A stretch of DNA of 64,000 nucleotides from Rhodoferax sediminis (GTDB lineage Bacteria; Pseudomonadota; Gammaproteobacteria; Burkholderiales; Burkholderiaceae_C), in the NCBI RefSeq assembly GCF_006970865.1, contig NZ_CP035503.1, positions 3,857,001 through 3,921,000 of the forward strand, written 5' to 3'. The position numbers and the translations under genes are program-made. The notes beneath the pieces were generated by a model. The model searched no databases, had not been told where the DNA came from, and saw only the letters and a list, made by a program, of their open reading frames with translations. Shown here one piece after another: positions 3,491-28,773 of this stretch. Each line of letters starts with the position of its first letter. Within the stretch, counting starts at the first letter, position 1.

Positions 3491-4563
3491 GGTTCATCTT
3501 CAAGACCGATTACGCGCAGGACATCCGCCTTGCCAAGCATGGCGGACACGTGTTCTGGTACAGCGCGCTGATGCTGCTGCTGCTCGCCGCGCCCTGGCTG
3601 TTTGCCGAGTACTGGCTGGCGCAGCTGACCTTTGTGCTGATCTACGGCATCGCCGGCCTCGGCCTGATGCTGCTGGCCGGCTTCACGGGCCAGTTTTCCA
3701 TCGGCCATGCGGCGTTTCTGGGCGCGGGCGCGTACACCCAGGCCGTGCTGACCAACATGGGCTGGCCGTTCCCGATCGCACTGGTGGCGGCCGGGCTGCT
3801 GTCGGCAGCGGTCGGGGTCATCGTGGGCCTGCCGGCCCTGCGCGTGAAGGGCATCTACCTCGGCATTGCCACGCTGGCGTTCGGCTTCATCGTCGAAGAG
3901 ATTCTGGCGCGCTGGGATTCGGTCACGGGCGGCAACTCGGGCATCCAGGTCAAGCCCCCCGAAATGTTCGGCTGGACCCTGGGCTCCGGCACCTCGTTTT
4001 ATTTCCTGTGCCTGGTCGTCGCCGTCGTGGCCACGCTGGCCATCCTGAACCTGCTGCGCTCGCCGACCGGCCGTGCCTTTGTGGCGATTCGCGATTCGGA
4101 GATTTCGGCGCAGAGCATGGGCATCCAGCTGGCGCGCTACAAGACGCTGTCGTTCGCGCTGTCGGCCGCGCTGGCCGGCGTGGCCGGCGCGCTGTATGCG
4201 CACAAGCTGCGCTTCATCTCGCCCGACCAGTTCGACATCCTGCAGTCCATCGACCTGCTGCTGCTGGTGGTCATCGGCGGCCTGGGCTCGGTCCATGGTG
4301 CGTTCCTGGGTGCGATCTTCCTGATTTCCATGCCGCAGCTGATCTCGCTGTCCAAGGGCTACCTGCCAGACGTGATCGGCCAGGCCCCCGGCTTGCAGGC
4401 GGTGGTGTACGGTGCGGTCCTGATCGGCTTTGTGCTGTTCGAACCACTCGGCCTGTACGGCCGCTGGCTGAAGATCCGCACCTACCTGCAGACCTTTCCG
4501 TTCTATCGCAAGGGCACGTTCAAGCGGCAAAAATCCTTCCAGAAATCGGACCGCCTCAGATGA
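3487..4563 (+). CDS. livM: Branched-chain-type ABC importer permease LivM
   Basis: Second membrane subunit, 358 residues, about ten hydrophobic segments. Family hallmarks are [24 protein letters not shown], a permease loop near [18 protein letters not shown], and [17 protein letters not shown] before the final helices. The ATG overlaps the livH stop and the TGA overlaps the livG start, so translation of the three genes is probably coupled. A basic tail ([18 protein letters not shown]) follows the last membrane segment and is likely cytoplasmic. Confidence 0.9.
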
Positions 4564-23916: not shown

Positions 23917-23943
23917 TGTCGATTTCCGCAAACGCCATTCGTC
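23917..23943 (+). promoter_or_regulatory. Predicted ECF42 promoter for the first DGPF/PhnB pair
   Basis: TGTCGA (23917-23922), 17 bases, then CGTC (23940-23943), followed by GT. This matches the pattern I recall for ECF42-group promoters (TGTCGA at -35, CGA/TC at -10). An identical arrangement occurs before the other transcription unit of this locus (28201-28227, minus strand). The gene start lies 74 bases further on. In between, GAGCAGGG (23953-23960) and CCCTGCTC (23981-23988) can form an eight-pair leader hairpin. Confidence 0.65.
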
Positions 23944-24017
23944 GTTCAGTCAGAGCAGGGGCGAGCCATCTTTCGACAGACCCTGCTCCTCAACGGAAAA
24001 CACAAGGAGTTACAACC

Positions 24018-24443
24018 ATGCGATTCATGATCATCGTCAGGGCGACCAGGGATTCAGAGGCCGGCGTGATGCCGAGCGAGCGACTGCTCGGCGAGATGGG
24101 CAAGTTCAATGAAGAACTGGTGAAGGCCGGCGTGATGCTCGCGGGCGAGGGTCTGCACCCCAGCGCCAAGGGCGCGCGCGTCAGGTTCTCCGGCCCCAAG
24201 CGCAGCGTGATCGACGGGCCCTTCGCCGAGACCAAGGAGCTGATCGCCGGCTTCTGGCTGTGGCAGGTGAGATCACTGGACGAGGCGATTGAATGGGTCA
24301 GGCGCTGCCCGAACCCGTTCGACACAGACTCCGAGATCGAGATCCGCCAGGTGTTCGAGGCCGAGGACTTCGGCGCCGAATTCACGCCCGAGCTGCGCGG
24401 GCAGGAGGCGCGATTGCGCACGCAGCTCGCCGCCAAGCCGTAG
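24018..24443 (+). CDS. DGPF/YCII-related protein 1
   Basis: Cytoplasmic protein of 141 residues, ferredoxin-like YCII fold. The name-giving motif appears as DGPFAETKELIAGFW at about residues 72-86, and MRFMIIVRATRDSEAG is the usual N-terminus. AAGGAG at 24004-24009 supports the ATG at 24018. Function is not known for any close member, but this family is strongly associated in genomes with ECF42 sigma factors, one of which is encoded on the opposite strand at 26321-27628. It is followed after 38 bases by a PhnB-like gene and is preceded by the predicted ECF42 promoter. Confidence 0.87.
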   Translation: MRFMIIVRATRDSEAGVMPSERLLGEMGKFNEELVKAGVMLAGEGLHPSAKGARVRFSGPKRSVIDGPFAETKELIAGFWLWQVRSLDEAIEWVRRCPNPFDTDSEIEIRQVFEAEDFGAEFTPELRGQEARLRTQLAAKP

Positions 24444-24481
24444 TCTTCGAAATTCCCCCGCCCCTTGAAAAGGAGAACGTC

Positions 24482-24895
24482 ATGCAAGTCCAACCCTACC
24501 TGTTTTTCGATGGCCGCTGCGAAGAAGCGCTCGAGTTCTACCGCAAGGCGCTGGGCGCCGAGATCACGATGCTCATGCGCGTCAAGGAATGCCCGGATCC
24601 GCTGCCGCCCGACATGTACCCGCCCGGCTCCGAGAACAAGGTGATGCACGCGAGCTTTCGCATTGGCGAGGCCACCCTGATGGCGTCCGACGGCCGCTGC
24701 CTGGGTAAACCGGTGTTCCAGGGGTTTTCGCTCTCACTGAACGCGCCCACCGAAGCCGAGGCCGACCGGCTGTTCGCGGCCCTGGGCGATGGCGGGCAGG
24801 TGCAGATGCCGCTGGCCAAGACCTTTTTCTCGCCGCGTTTCGGCATGGTGGCCGACCGCTTTGGCGTGGGCTGGATGGTCATCGTGGCGGCTTGA
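24482..24895 (+). CDS. PhnB-like VOC-superfamily protein 1
   Basis: Protein of 137 residues with the vicinal-oxygen-chelate (glyoxalase/dioxygenase) fold, PhnB/3-demethylubiquinone methyltransferase-like branch. It begins MQVQPYLFFDGRCEEALEFYRKALGAEI and ends RFGMVADRFGVGWMVIV, both typical. AAGGAGAA precedes the ATG by a suitable distance. Such proteins often accompany DGPF proteins and ECF42 sigma factors. No complete metal-ligand set is evident, so an enzymatic role is uncertain. It converges on the BNR gene; CGGTGCTGCG (24904-24913) and CGCAGCACCG (24927-24936) form a hairpin between them. Confidence 0.87.
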   Translation: MQVQPYLFFDGRCEEALEFYRKALGAEITMLMRVKECPDPLPPDMYPPGSENKVMHASFRIGEATLMASDGRCLGKPVFQGFSLSLNAPTEAEADRLFAALGDGGQVQMPLAKTFFSPRFGMVADRFGVGWMVIVAA

Positions 24896-24913
24896 GACAG
24901 GGCCGGTGCTGCG

Positions 24914-26011
24914 CTATCTCACGAACCGCAGCACCGCCACCGGCGGCAGGTCGCGTGACAGGACTTGCCAGCTCTCGCCCGCGTCAAAGCTGACCCACAG
25001 CCCGCCCGTGGTGGAGGCCATCGCGAGCGTCTGGCCGTCATCCGCAACGTCCAGCGCGTGGCGGTAGACCAGGTGATAGGCATGGCTTTGCGGCAGGCCT
25101 TGCGCCAGCACCTTGAACGTGGCACCGCCGTCGTCCGTGCGCGTCACGACCATCCGGCCGTCGACCGGAATACGGCAGGCGTCGGCCTGCGCCGGCGCGA
25201 ACCAGGCGCGCTGCGGGTCGCGCGGGTCGCAGGCCACGGCGAAGCCGAAGCCCGAGGGCGCTGGCGCAGCAATGGCCTGCCAGGTCTGCGCGCCGTCGGC
25301 GGAGCGGTAGATGCCGCAGTGGTGCTGCACCCACAGCGCGTCGGGCTGGGCTGCGCACTGCACCATGCAGTGCACGTCCTGGATGTTTTCGTCGGACGCG
25401 CTTTCCTCGGGCATGTAGTCGGCCTTCATGCCGGACGCGGTCAAAGCCCAGCTGGCGCCGCCATCGCGCGTTTGCCAGACACCGCCCGAGGAGACGGCCA
25501 CGGTCAGGTGGCGGGCGTCGCGCGGATCCACCAGCACCGAGTGAATGCCCGGATGGTCGTAGCCGCCGCCAAACCAGCCCCGGCGTTTGGGCTCTTCCCA
25601 TAGCGCCGTGTTCAGCGCCCAGCTCGCGCCGCCGTCTTCGGACTTGAACAGGCCCGCCGGCATGCAGCCGGTCCATAGCGTGCCGGGCTGGTCCGCGCCG
25701 CCGGCCGCCAGCGCCCAGATCAGGTCCACGTTCCAGGGCGTAGCGTCATCTGCCCACGGTCCGTTCACGGGCTTGGGTGGAAAGGCCGGCGCGGCGATCT
25801 CTTGCCAGCTCGTCCCCTGATCCATGCTCTTGCGCAACTTGACGCCGAAGTGCCCCATGCGCAGCGCGGCATACCAGGCACCGTCGCGCGGATCGGCCAG
25901 CAGCTGCGTCACCGGGTCTCCGGCGAAGTGGTGCGAGGCGATGCGCCAGTCGGCGCCTTCGCCGTGGATCACGAACAGGCCCTTGCGGGTGCCTGTCAGC
26001 AATGTGTTCAT
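24914..26011 (-). CDS. BNR/Asp-box beta-propeller (sialidase-like fold) protein
   Basis: Protein of 365 residues with no signal peptide, so probably cytoplasmic. Several Asp-box repeats are visible (SMDQGTSWQ, SEDGGASWA, TRDGGASWA, SADGAQTWQ, TDDGGATFK, SFDAGESWQ), which mark a beta-propeller related to sialidases and Vps10-type repeats. No Arg triad or other sialidase active site stands out, so I do not call it a hydrolase. AAGGAG precedes the ATG. It is the last gene of the operon PhnB2, sigma factor, MoaD-like, BNR. It may bind a protein or a small ligand as the output of this stress regulon. Confidence 0.8.
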   Translation of the reverse strand: MNTLLTGTRKGLFVIHGEGADWRIASHHFAGDPVTQLLADPRDGAWYAALRMGHFGVKLRKSMDQGTSWQEIAAPAFPPKPVNGPWADDATPWNVDLIWALAAGGADQPGTLWTGCMPAGLFKSEDGGASWALNTALWEEPKRRGWFGGGYDHPGIHSVLVDPRDARHLTVAVSSGGVWQTRDGGASWALTASGMKADYMPEESASDENIQDVHCMVQCAAQPDALWVQHHCGIYRSADGAQTWQAIAAPAPSGFGFAVACDPRDPQRAWFAPAQADACRIPVDGRMVVTRTDDGGATFKVLAQGLPQSHAYHLVYRHALDVADDGQTLAMASTTGGLWVSFDAGESWQVLSRDLPPVAVLRFVR

Positions 26012-26042
26012 GAAGACTCCTTTCGTTGCGAGCGCGGCCCGA

Positions 26043-26324
26043 TCAGCCGCCGGTCAGGGCCTGGATCACCAGCACCCGGTCGCCCGGGCTCAAAAGTTGG
26101 TCGAGATGGATGCGCTCGCGCACCATCTGCTGGTTCACGAACACGGCCACATGTTTGCGCACAGCGCGCTGGTCGTCGAACACGTAATGCGCGAGCTCGG
26201 GCGCCGCAGCCAGCGCGGCCTCCAGCACCGCGCGCAGGCTGCCCGGCGCGACCGACTGCGGCGCGCAGTTCACATGCCGGCGCAGGCTGGCGGCGAATTC
26301 CACACAGACCGTTGCAGCTGTCAT
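26043..26324 (-). CDS. MoaD/ThiS-like beta-grasp protein with GG terminus
   Basis: Ubiquitin-like small protein of 93 residues ending in LTGG. The pattern VCVEFAASLRRHV, a central helix SLRAVLEAALAAAPELAHYV, then VAVFVNQQMVRE and LLSPGDRVLVIQALTGG fits sulfur-carrier proteins such as MoaD and ThiS, whose terminal glycine is adenylated by an E1-like enzyme. No E1-like, MoaE or ThiG gene is in the window. The ATG overlaps the stop of the sigma-factor gene by four bases and the BNR gene starts 31 bases on. A dedicated role with the BNR protein is possible; ordinary molybdopterin synthesis is less likely in this setting. Confidence 0.8.
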   Translation of the reverse strand: MTAATVCVEFAASLRRHVNCAPQSVAPGSLRAVLEAALAAAPELAHYVFDDQRAVRKHVAVFVNQQMVRERIHLDQLLSPGDRVLVIQALTGG

Positions 26325-27628
26325 GACGGTGACGGCCGGCGCCCTGTCGGGGCCAACCCCTCGGCACGCTCCAGCAGCAGTTCGCGCTCGCGCACATTGC
26401 GCGCCAGCGCCGCCGCGCACTCGAACTCGGCGCGCGCCTCGTCGGCGCGGCCCATCCTGGCGAGCAGGTCGCCGCGCACGCTGGGCAGCCACTGGTAGCC
26501 TTGCAGGGACTTTTCGCGGCGCAACGTGTCGATGATCTCAAGCCCGGCGGCCGGTCCGAAGGCCATGCTCACGGCCACCGCGCGGTTGAGTTCCACCACG
26601 GGCGAGGGCGCGACCTGCGCGAGCGCGTCGTACAGCGCGACGATGCGCACCCAATCGGTCTGCGCGGCGGTGTGGGCTCGCGCATGACAGCCCGCGATCG
26701 CCGCCTGCAGCGCATACGGGCCGAGCGGATGGCCGACCAATGCTCCCAGTGATTCGGCCCGTTCGAGCGCCACCAGGCCGCGCCGGATCAAAACCCGGTC
26801 CCAGCGGGCCCGGTTCTGCTCAGGCAGCAGCACCGGGCGACCGCTCGCATCCACGCGCGCGGCGCCGCGCGAGGCCTGCAGCTCCATCAGCGCGATCAGA
26901 CCGTGCACCTCGGACTCGCCGGGTGCGAGCTCGGCCAGCATGCGGCCCAGACGCAGCGCCTCATCGGTGAGTTCGGGGCGTATCCAGTCCTCGCCCGCGG
27001 TGGCGGTATAGCCTTCGTTGAAGATCAGGTAGACCACTTCGAGCACCGAGGCCAGCCGCTCGCCCACGGCGGCGCCGCGCGGCAGCTCGAACGGCATGCG
27101 CGCCTCGCTCAAGGTGCGCTTGGCGCGCACGATGCGCTGCGCGATGGTCGGTTCGGGCACCAGGAAGGCACGCGCAATCTCGTGCGTGGTCAGGCCGCCG
27201 AGCAGCCTGAGGGTCAGCGCCACACGCGCCTCGGCCGAAAGGACGGGGTGGCAGGCCGTGAAGATCAGCCGCAGCAGGTCATCGCCGATCTCGTCGGCAC
27301 GCGCGGCATCCAGGGCATCGACAAAGTCCGGCACGACCAGTGCCTGCTGCGCTTCAAGATCCTGGCCGATCTGTTCGAGCCTGACATCCAGCGCCTTGTT
27401 GCGGCGCAGGCGGTCGAGCGCCTTGTTTTTCGCGGTGGCCATGAGCCAGGCGCCGGGGTTGTCCGGCACGCCTGTGGCAGGCCAGTGCTCGAGCGCCGCC
27501 ACCAGCGCGTCCTGCGCCAGTTCTTCGGCCAGCCCGACGTCGCGCACCAGACGCAGGGTGCCGGCCACGATCTTCGCTGACTCGATGCGCCAGACCGCGT
27601 CGATGGCGTGATGCGTGGCCGAATGCAT
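26321..27628 (-). CDS. ECF42-group RNA polymerase sigma factor with C-terminal extension
   Basis: Sigma factor of 435 residues, more than twice the usual ECF length. Region 2 is at residues 1-90 (ELAQDALVAALEHWPATGVPDNPGAWLMATAKNKALDRLRR), region 4 at about 120-180 (LTLRLLGGLTTHEIARAFLVPEPTIAQRIVRAKRTL). The rest is a helical, TPR-like domain with YLIFNEGYTATAGEDWIRPELTDEALRL, characteristic of the ECF42 group (COG4941). That group has no classical anti-sigma factor, and the extension itself is thought to be needed for activity. AGGGAG precedes the ATG. It lies between a PhnB-like and a MoaD-like gene, downstream of a promoter that carries its likely recognition motif. Confidence 0.92.
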   Translation of the reverse strand: MHSATHHAIDAVWRIESAKIVAGTLRLVRDVGLAEELAQDALVAALEHWPATGVPDNPGAWLMATAKNKALDRLRRNKALDVRLEQIGQDLEAQQALVVPDFVDALDAARADEIGDDLLRLIFTACHPVLSAEARVALTLRLLGGLTTHEIARAFLVPEPTIAQRIVRAKRTLSEARMPFELPRGAAVGERLASVLEVVYLIFNEGYTATAGEDWIRPELTDEALRLGRMLAELAPGESEVHGLIALMELQASRGAARVDASGRPVLLPEQNRARWDRVLIRRGLVALERAESLGALVGHPLGPYALQAAIAGCHARAHTAAQTDWVRIVALYDALAQVAPSPVVELNRAVAVSMAFGPAAGLEIIDTLRREKSLQGYQWLPSVRGDLLARMGRADEARAEFECAAALARNVRERELLLERAEGLAPTGRRPSPS

Positions 27629-27646
27629 CCGGGGTCTCCCTTGCCG

Positions 27647-28120
27647 TCACCGGCCGTCATAGGCGCTCTGCAGCGCGGCAATGTCGAGCTTTTTCATGGC
27701 CATCAGCGCTGTCATGACACGCTGCGAGCGGGCCGGATCCTCACTGCCGAGCATCTGCTGCAATGCAACGGGAACGATCTGCCAGGACACGCCGTATTTG
27801 TCCATCAGCCAGCCGCATTGCTCGCGCTCCTGGTGCGCCGACAGCTTTTGCCAATAGTCATCCACCTCGGACTGGGACGCGCAATTGACCACCAGCGAGA
27901 TGGCCGGTGAAAACGGAAAATCCGGCGTTCCGTTGAGGGCCACGAACGCCTGTCCGTCGAGTTCGAAGCGCACCGTCAGCACGGTTCCTGCGGGCAAAGG
28001 CGCGCCCTCGCCGTAACGGTTCAGGCCCAGGATGCGGGAGTTCTTGAAGACGGAAACGTAGAAACTGGCGGCCTCTTCGGCCTGGCCGTCGAACCAGAGG
28101 CAAGGGGTGATTTTTTGCAT
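27647..28120 (-). CDS. PhnB-like VOC-superfamily protein 2
   Basis: Protein of 157 residues, PhnB-like branch of the vicinal-oxygen-chelate fold. It begins MQKITPCLWFDGQAEEAASFYVSVFKNSRI, with LVVNCASQSEVDDYWQKLS and CGWLMDKYGVSWQIVP, all typical of the group often annotated 3-demethylubiquinone methyltransferase-like. The ATG is preceded by AGGAGAAA. It is the first gene after the second predicted ECF42 promoter and is 18 bases from the sigma-factor start. It differs clearly from the PhnB-like protein at 24482, so the two are not recent duplicates. Confidence 0.87.
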   Translation of the reverse strand: MQKITPCLWFDGQAEEAASFYVSVFKNSRILGLNRYGEGAPLPAGTVLTVRFELDGQAFVALNGTPDFPFSPAISLVVNCASQSEVDDYWQKLSAHQEREQCGWLMDKYGVSWQIVPVALQQMLGSEDPARSQRVMTALMAMKKLDIAALQSAYDGR

Positions 28121-28173
28121 CGCTCATTTCTCCTGTGGTCGCGCCGGCCCGCGCACCATGCCGGCCTGGCCCC

Positions 28174-28191
28174 GAGGCCGCCTTCGGCCTC
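28174..28191 (-). other. Leader hairpin after the second ECF42 promoter
   Basis: GAGGCCG (28174-28180) and CGGCCTC (28185-28191) form a perfect seven-pair stem with a four-base loop in the predicted untranslated leader of the PhnB2-sigma operon. A leader hairpin also follows the other promoter of this locus. No T-run follows, so it is not an obvious terminator. Confidence 0.35.
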
Positions 28192-28200
28192 TTTATGCAC

Positions 28201-28227
28201 GACGAACGGCGCCCCGCGATCTCGACA
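28201..28227 (-). promoter_or_regulatory. Predicted ECF42 promoter for the PhnB2-sigma-MoaD-BNR operon
   Basis: On the minus strand TGTCGA (28227-28222), 17 bases, then CGTC (28204-28201) and GT. The motif and spacing equal those at 23917-23943. The start codon of PhnB2 lies 80 bases downstream, close to the 74 of the other promoter. Because the sigma gene is in this operon, the promoter would make the regulon self-activating. Confidence 0.65.
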
Positions 28228-28247: not shown

Positions 28248-28634
28248 TTATGTGCCCACGCGGGCCACCCGTGCCGCACTGTCGTCGTAACAAGGGGCCA
28301 GGGCACGGACCTCCACCGTGGCCCACTGCGCCGCCGGGCATTCGCGCGCGATAGCGACCGCCTCGTCGAAACTGCTGCAGTCGATCAGAAAAAACCCGCC
28401 GATCATTTCCTTGGCTTCGGCAAACGGGCCGTCCAGCACCTGCAGCTTGCCGCCGCTCGTCTGCACCCGGGCGGCCGCGGCATGCGAGGCCAGCGACCCG
28501 GTGGCCTGCAGCACGCCGCGCGCCTTGAGACTTCCCGCAAAGCGAACCATGCTGTCATACGCGGCACGGCCCTCGGCTTCGGTGCGGCTTTGCCGCTGGC
28601 CGGTCGGCTCAAGAATCAGGAGCATGTAGGTCAT
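28248..28634 (-). CDS. DGPF/YCII-related protein 2
   Basis: Protein of 128 residues with the YCII fold. MTYMLLILEPTGQR is the usual start and VLDGPFAEAKEMIGGFFLIDC carries the DGPF motif at about residues 68-74. I use the ATG ending at 28634; an upstream in-frame GTG/ATG reading would add residues that do not fit the family. It ends 21 bases before the predicted ECF42 promoter of the next genes, so it may be transcribed separately; I found no TGTCGA element upstream of it. Together with the 24018 protein it gives two DGPF proteins for one sigma factor. Confidence 0.87.
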   Translation of the reverse strand: MTYMLLILEPTGQRQSRTEAEGRAAYDSMVRFAGSLKARGVLQATGSLASHAAAARVQTSGGKLQVLDGPFAEAKEMIGGFFLIDCSSFDEAVAIARECPAAQWATVEVRALAPCYDDSAARVARVGT

Positions 28635-28773
28635 GGGGGCCCGGATCGTGTTTTGCCCGGGCGTGTCCCGGTCGCGCAATCATCATAGCGAGGCCTGCCG
28701 CGCCGTTCAATGTCGTACCGGCTCAACTTGTAACACGCAACACGCGAGCGGCTGCCGGCGCCGGAGGTCCCGC

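Follow-up and report, generated by a model that had tools for sequence, protein, structure and literature searches.

Sigma factors of the extracytoplasmic function (ECF) group ECF42 carry a C-terminal extension of about 200 residues with tetratricopeptide (TPR)-like repeats. Here we describe a locus of this kind in a 64,000-nt stretch of the Rhodoferax sediminis genome (NZ_CP035503.1), referred to below as the window, in which two convergent transcription units each follow a copy of the same putative promoter: DGPF1-PhnB1 on one side and PhnB2-sigma-MoaD-BNR on the other, with a further gene, DGPF2, upstream of the latter. Among described systems, RpoE10 of Sinorhizobium meliloti has been assigned to ECF42, and promoter sequences are given before SMb20475, SMc01149 and SMc01151 (PMC6180224, Table 1); by our count of the spacing, all three contain TGTCGG-N17-CGTC. 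Overexpression of RpoE10 raised the SMb20475 and SMc01149 operons at least 2-fold (PMC6180224). The proteins Sven_0747, Sven_7131 and Sven_4377 of Streptomyces venezuelae and ECF-10 of Pseudomonas putida have, like the present sigma factor, a long C-terminal extension and a YCII neighbour; a partner for most of this extension has not yet been identified, and suspicion falls on the conserved YCII neighbour (PMC8999054).

In the Rhodoferax sigma protein, Sigma70_r2 and Sigma70_r4_2, corresponding to ECF core regions 2 and 4, score above the Pfam cut-offs, and the C-terminal extension is present (435 aa in all) with DUF6596 at residues 191–291; Pfam gave no TPR family. Two YCII (DGPF) genes and the group promoter TGTCG(A/G)-N17-CG(A/T)C are found at the locus, and none of the eight locus proteins matches an anti-sigma family in Pfam or NCBIfam, which fits ECF42. 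The assignment to ECF42 made in a preliminary description of this DNA is well supported by the domains, by the YCII- and PhnB-like neighbours, by the promoter motif at 54 of 80 related loci (see below) and by the RpoE10 promoters. As far as the passages on RpoE10 in PMC6180224 go, that factor and the one in the window have in common membership of ECF42, a YCII neighbour, the sequence TGTCG(G/A)-N17-CGTC, more than one target operon and glyoxalase-like targets; we also count as a likeness that one RpoE10 target has a hydrophobic-ligand-binding domain. They differ in the −35 element, which is TGTCGG for RpoE10 and TGTCGA in the window, and in the genes MoaD and BNR, for which those passages describe no equivalent. 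The SMc01151 promoter reads GCGCCATTCGTC where the window has ACGCCATTCGTC.

We put at roughly 85% the probability that both sites are −35/−10 promoters read by the ECF42-type sigma factor whose gene lies between the two. RNA polymerase carrying this factor would read both sites. Promoter 2 would drive PhnB2-sigma-MoaD-BNR, so that the sigma factor would exert feedback on the operon that encodes it, promoter 1 would drive DGPF1-PhnB1, and a third copy of the promoter, elsewhere in the genome, would drive the gene pair AHSA1-RibD_C. DGPF2, with a sigma-70-like promoter, would stay outside this loop, and transcripts reading through from it would provide a basal level of sigma factor; the regulon of a second ECF42-type sigma factor in the same genome would probably be separate. 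The signals beside the sigma gene are very probably switches of a known kind, read by that sigma factor. The kind of system is already known; what the present analysis adds is the likely third target, the class-specific −10 region and the division of the YCII proteins into subfamilies. From the sequences we predict that the regulon comprises at least three units, and also which of the two sigma factors reads which promoter.

At site 1, TGTCGA (23917–23922) is followed by a 17-base spacer and CGTCGT (23940–23945) on the plus strand; at site 2, TGTCGA (28227–28222), a 17-base spacer and CGTCGT (28204–28199) lie on the minus strand. The sequence thus bears out the motif, its two places and its exact spacing as first described, and the leaders from the end of CGTC to the ATG measure 74 bases for DGPF1 and 80 bases for PhnB2, as had been stated. 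The window holds two copies of the 10-base core TGTCGA-N17-CGTC where 0.13 would be expected, and two or more copies arose in 0 of 100 shuffles; the earlier estimate of one chance occurrence in ten windows was about right, our figure being about one in eight. Agreement between the sites extends beyond that motif to TGTCGA-N10-CGCCRTTCGTCGT and to CGCC.TTCGTCGT. With up to two mismatches this longer shared pattern, which was derived from the two sites themselves, is found only at these two places in the 4,387,497-base genome. The motif is reportedly that of ECF42 factors in Streptomyces; our literature text search found no paper combining TGTCGA with an ECF sigma factor promoter. The hairpins noted in both leaders are present, but they are not unusual (z = −1.0 and −1.3, with 31 and 19 of 200 shuffles folding equally well), and we rejected them as evidence. 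In an alignment by eye, leader 1 of the nearest relative, locus L033 from Polaromonas sp. C04, has one stem pair broken with no compensating change, which also counts against the hairpin.

Table 1. Coordinates of the promoters and genes in the window, with the evidence for each
Feature	Position	Strand	Evidence
Promoter 1, TGTCGA-N17-CGTC(GT), upstream of DGPF1-PhnB1	23917..23945	+	Motif count; matrix rank 1 in window
Promoter 2, TGTCGA-N17-CGTC(GT), upstream of PhnB2-sigma-MoaD-BNR	28199..28227	-	Motif count; matrix rank 2; L033 identical
DGPF1, YCII-domain protein, subfamily behind putative ECF promoter	24018..24443	+	Pfam PF03795; tree
PhnB1, VOC/glyoxalase-like protein	24482..24895	+	Pfam PF06983, PF00903
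BNR/sortilin-type propeller protein	24914..26011	-	Pfam PF15902 above cut-off, PF02012 below cut-off
MoaD/ThiS-like protein	26043..26324	-	Pfam PF02597
ECF42-type sigma factor, 435 aa	26321..27628	-	Pfam Sigma70_r2, Sigma70_r4_2, DUF6596
PhnB2, first gene after promoter 2	27647..28120	-	Pfam PF06983
DGPF2, YCII-domain protein outside putative ECF promoter	28248..28634	-	Pfam PF03795; tree
Sigma-70-like TTGAAC-N17-TATGAT upstream of DGPF2	28682..28710	-	1 match vs 0.5 expected in scanned stretch

Related loci were collected by scanning one-genome-per-species contigs with the sigma protein and taking the best 80 loci of a longer list; up to 2.2 kb before the sigma gene were searched, the full stretch being available in 73 of the 80. 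In 54 of the 80 loci the coding strand carries TGTCGR-N17-CGWC before the sigma gene, against 3 on the opposite strand and a mean of 2.2 loci (maximum 5) in 50 rounds of dinucleotide shuffling of the upstream stretches; control spacers of 11, 14, 20 and 23 bases gave 0, 0, 10 and 2. A YCII gene follows 37–85 bases downstream of the site in 46 of these 54 loci; in the other eight the next recognised gene is further away, in L033 the sigma gene at about 156 bases. When spacers of 10–24 bases are counted over whole loci, 17 is again the highest (78), with high out-of-phase counts at 12 (54), 24 (52), 21 (51), 15 (49) and 18 (48); since these reflect codon periodicity, we prefer the strand-specific upstream count. 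The consensus of 57 sites is approximately CNTGTCGATYYNG-N7-YCGTTCGWCGY; CGAC is found in 29 of them and CGTC in 28. A matrix built from the sites of other genomes, with L033 left out, was run over every position of the window on both strands and ranks the two sites 1 and 2, with scores of 30.3 and 28.6; the next match scores 8.0. The training sites were picked by the core motif, which therefore scores by construction, and the independent part of this result is the T before CGTC and the GT after it, both outside the selecting core. One locus from a Terriglobia assembly (L064) has sites at 4126 and 4668 before consecutive YCII genes, one with CGTC and one with CGAC.

A genome scan for other targets had been proposed in the preliminary description. 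The short motif does not discriminate in such a scan; a longer pattern yielded a likely third site. Without mismatch, TGTCGA-N16-TCGTCG occurs three times in the genome, at the two window sites and at 1444584–1444611, an intergenic position 2.4 Mb from the sigma locus and 39 bases upstream of an AHSA1 gene that is followed by a RibD_C gene. In 242 kb of loci from the same genome, the matrix scores are 20.7 for this third site, 18.3 for the site of the second sigma factor and 14.5 for the next match. We compared the 30 closest AHSA1 homologues of the family, from 119 genomes with a match. Of the 20 genomes that have a DUF6596 sigma factor, 11 carry an exact site in the 300 bases before the gene and 9 do not, and of the 10 that lack such a factor none carries one (p = 0.004); with a matrix score of at least 14, a cut chosen once the scores were known, the figures are 14 of 20 and 1 of 10 (p = 0.005). 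The exact sites resemble those of the window's sigma class, with CGTC in 11 of 11 and a T before it in 9 of 11, and two genomes (G027 and G154) carry an AHSA1 homologue two genes 3′ of an ECF42 sigma gene. The site before AHSA1-RibD_C is likely to be a further target of the sigma factor. A second AHSA1 gene (L117:1012-1461) lies immediately upstream of the third promoter, outside it, in an arrangement that resembles that of DGPF2.

The second DUF6596 sigma factor of this genome (about 1004829–1006034) also has a YCII gene and a TGTCGA-N17-CGWC site, here TGTCGA-N17-CGAC 49 bases upstream of its own YCII gene, and is 39% identical to the window's factor. These likenesses raise the alternative that the window sites are ECF42 promoters read mainly or equally by the second factor. 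The two differ in the −10 region, which reads GAGCGAC at the second factor's site and ATTCGTC and GTTCGTC at the window sites, and this difference recurs across the family. The 62 family sigma loci, drawn from 29 of the 35 genomes with at least two DUF6596 matches (all but G059, G082, G088, G109, G123 and G190) together with the single-match genomes G167 and G055, include two supported clades: class I with the window's factor (29 rows) and class II with the second factor (22 rows). An exact site is present in 24 of 29, 16 of 22 and, for the rows in neither class, 0 of 11. The base before CGWC is T at 19 of the 24 sites of class I and at none of the 16 of class II (p = 3e-7), and the CGTC form is found at 23 of 24 and 7 of 16 (p = 0.0003); because the rows share descent these p-values overstate the contrast, and what counts is its persistence from genus to genus. 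In the 12 genomes with both classes, the T before CGWC is confined to class I in 10 and absent from both in 2, with none opposite (p = 0.002), and at the third base of CGWC 8 combine a class I T with a class II A, 3 have T in both and one (G127) is reversed. The seven class II sites with CGTC leave room for cross-reading, yet with the −10 region so divided between the classes we regard reading mainly or equally by the second factor as improbable. Since that factor's own promoter has a different −10 region, the two regulons are probably separate. As to a sigma residue that would choose T or A in the −10 region, residue 68 is N in 16 T rows and 1 A row, with only three independent supported pairs, and we make no such claim.

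Several results weigh against the proposal that the window's own sigma factor reads both sites. Across the genome TGTCGR-N17-CGTC is not enriched (12 matches against 18 for the reversed pattern), nor is TGTCGA-N16-TCGTCG with up to two mismatches (310 against 496); the exact site is absent upstream in 26 of the 80 related loci; and in S. meliloti the SMc01151-rpoE10 operon, whose motif overlaps the transcription start site, did not rise on RpoE10 overexpression (PMC6180224), so that feedback, proposed here, is not to be taken for granted. Of the 26 loci that lack the exact site, 12 exceed the best reversed-sequence control (7.1) in matrix score, L111 and L079 narrowly or doubtfully. Other forms of the pattern gave 139 matches against 104 (TGTCGA-N16-18-CGWC) and 21 against 11 (TGTCGA-N15-TTCGWC, up to one mismatch), and the short motif by itself is uninformative in genome scans. 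Nine of the 12 matches to TGTCGR-N17-CGTC, namely those other than the window sites and the third site, lie under an open frame of at least 100 codons; the window sites do too, and such overlap therefore cannot sort real from chance sites. The count of 12 against 18 is what speaks for mere chance matches in a G+C-rich genome, but the two sites precede the two units of a sigma locus, agree with each other outside the core and are kept in relatives, and of the explanations considered chance seems to us the least credible. Hardly more plausible is a role as operators for a DNA-binding regulator: sequence alone does not tell an operator from a promoter, and the sigma gene is the sole regulator gene among the eight locus proteins examined, but the sites are non-palindromic with fixed spacing, the related loci favour one strand by 54 to 3, and the same sequence occurs in the promoters given for RpoE10 (PMC6180224). 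The preliminary description predicted that the sigma factor activates its own operon and a second one. That prediction is supported as a reading, with sigma dependence inferred from the motif; its feedback half meets the S. meliloti result, and a single second operon is probably too few.

DGPF2 ends, by its stop codon, 20 bases upstream of the −35 element of site 2. This placement is common: at 17 of the 24 class I sites the last sense codon of a YCII gene lies 12–60 bases before the −35 element, and an exact ECF42 site was found within 300 bases upstream of 0 of the 16 such genes examined. We built a tree of 69 YCII proteins from 21 class I, 15 class II and 11 wider loci, hand-picked from the 80. 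Left out were L246 (a near copy of L217), L229 and L263 (which show no YCII hit from the site to the sigma gene), the upstream YCII frames of L265 and L210 (open frame too long), any upstream YCII gene whose end is over 150 bases (family) or over 400 bases (wider) away from the site, and loci without a site, on which the tree is therefore silent. All 26 proteins encoded before the promoter fall in one clade (Shimodaira–Hasegawa-like approximate likelihood ratio support 99), 27 of the 28 class I proteins encoded behind it in another (91), with the one exception on a very long branch, and all 15 from class II in a third (95). Position tracks subfamily in Burkholderiaceae, in Alcaligenaceae and in one gammaproteobacterial assembly. 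From its subfamily position we conclude that the ECF42 promoter probably does not drive DGPF2, which is by inference a good candidate for the partner of the ECF42 extension. The locus holds two YCII proteins of different subfamilies, one outside the sigma promoter and one behind it.

The sigma-70-like sequence before DGPF2 is the same in G001, and its match is reached by 6 of 100 shuffles in the window and 0 of 100 in G001. As a general rule such a promoter was rejected: across 16 loci the best match has a mean of 6.75 of 12, compared with 5.8 for shuffled sequence, and shuffles reach it in 0 of 100 cases for L231 and L207, 5 for L225, 6 for the window and at least 22 for each of the other 12. 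We retain the putative promoter for the window locus and G001 only. A wider and tentative scheme, which we think doubtful as a whole, is that in class I ECF42 loci of Burkholderiales the sigma factor's promoter would part the YCII proteins: the DGPF2 subfamily, retained immediately outside it, would be a constitutive partner setting the activity of the sigma extension, DGPF1, PhnB, AHSA1 and RibD_C would form the induced response, and the bases flanking the −10 element would keep the two ECF42 factors apart.

In the sigma operon the ATG of MoaD overlaps the stop codon of the sigma gene. A MoaD-like gene adjoins BNR in 30 of 30 loci (L177–L206, the 30 closest BNR homologues, from 65 genomes with a match), and an ECF42 sigma gene stands beside the pair in four of them (G000, G001, G137 and G167); a BNR-type gene also lies 3′ of an ECF42 sigma gene in G055 and L047. 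As the pairing mostly occurs away from an ECF42 sigma gene, MoaD-BNR is an independent two-gene module that became part of this operon. The L033 locus is 94% identical to the window along 3.3 kb, which start at the end of PhnB2 and run to DGPF1, and lacks 432 bases of PhnB2 (window 28090–27659) and 300 bases of DGPF1 (window 24355–24056). Its promoter 2 is identical in 27 of 27 bases and its promoter 1 has two spacer differences; both promoters and start codons are kept despite the loss of most of PhnB2 and DGPF1.

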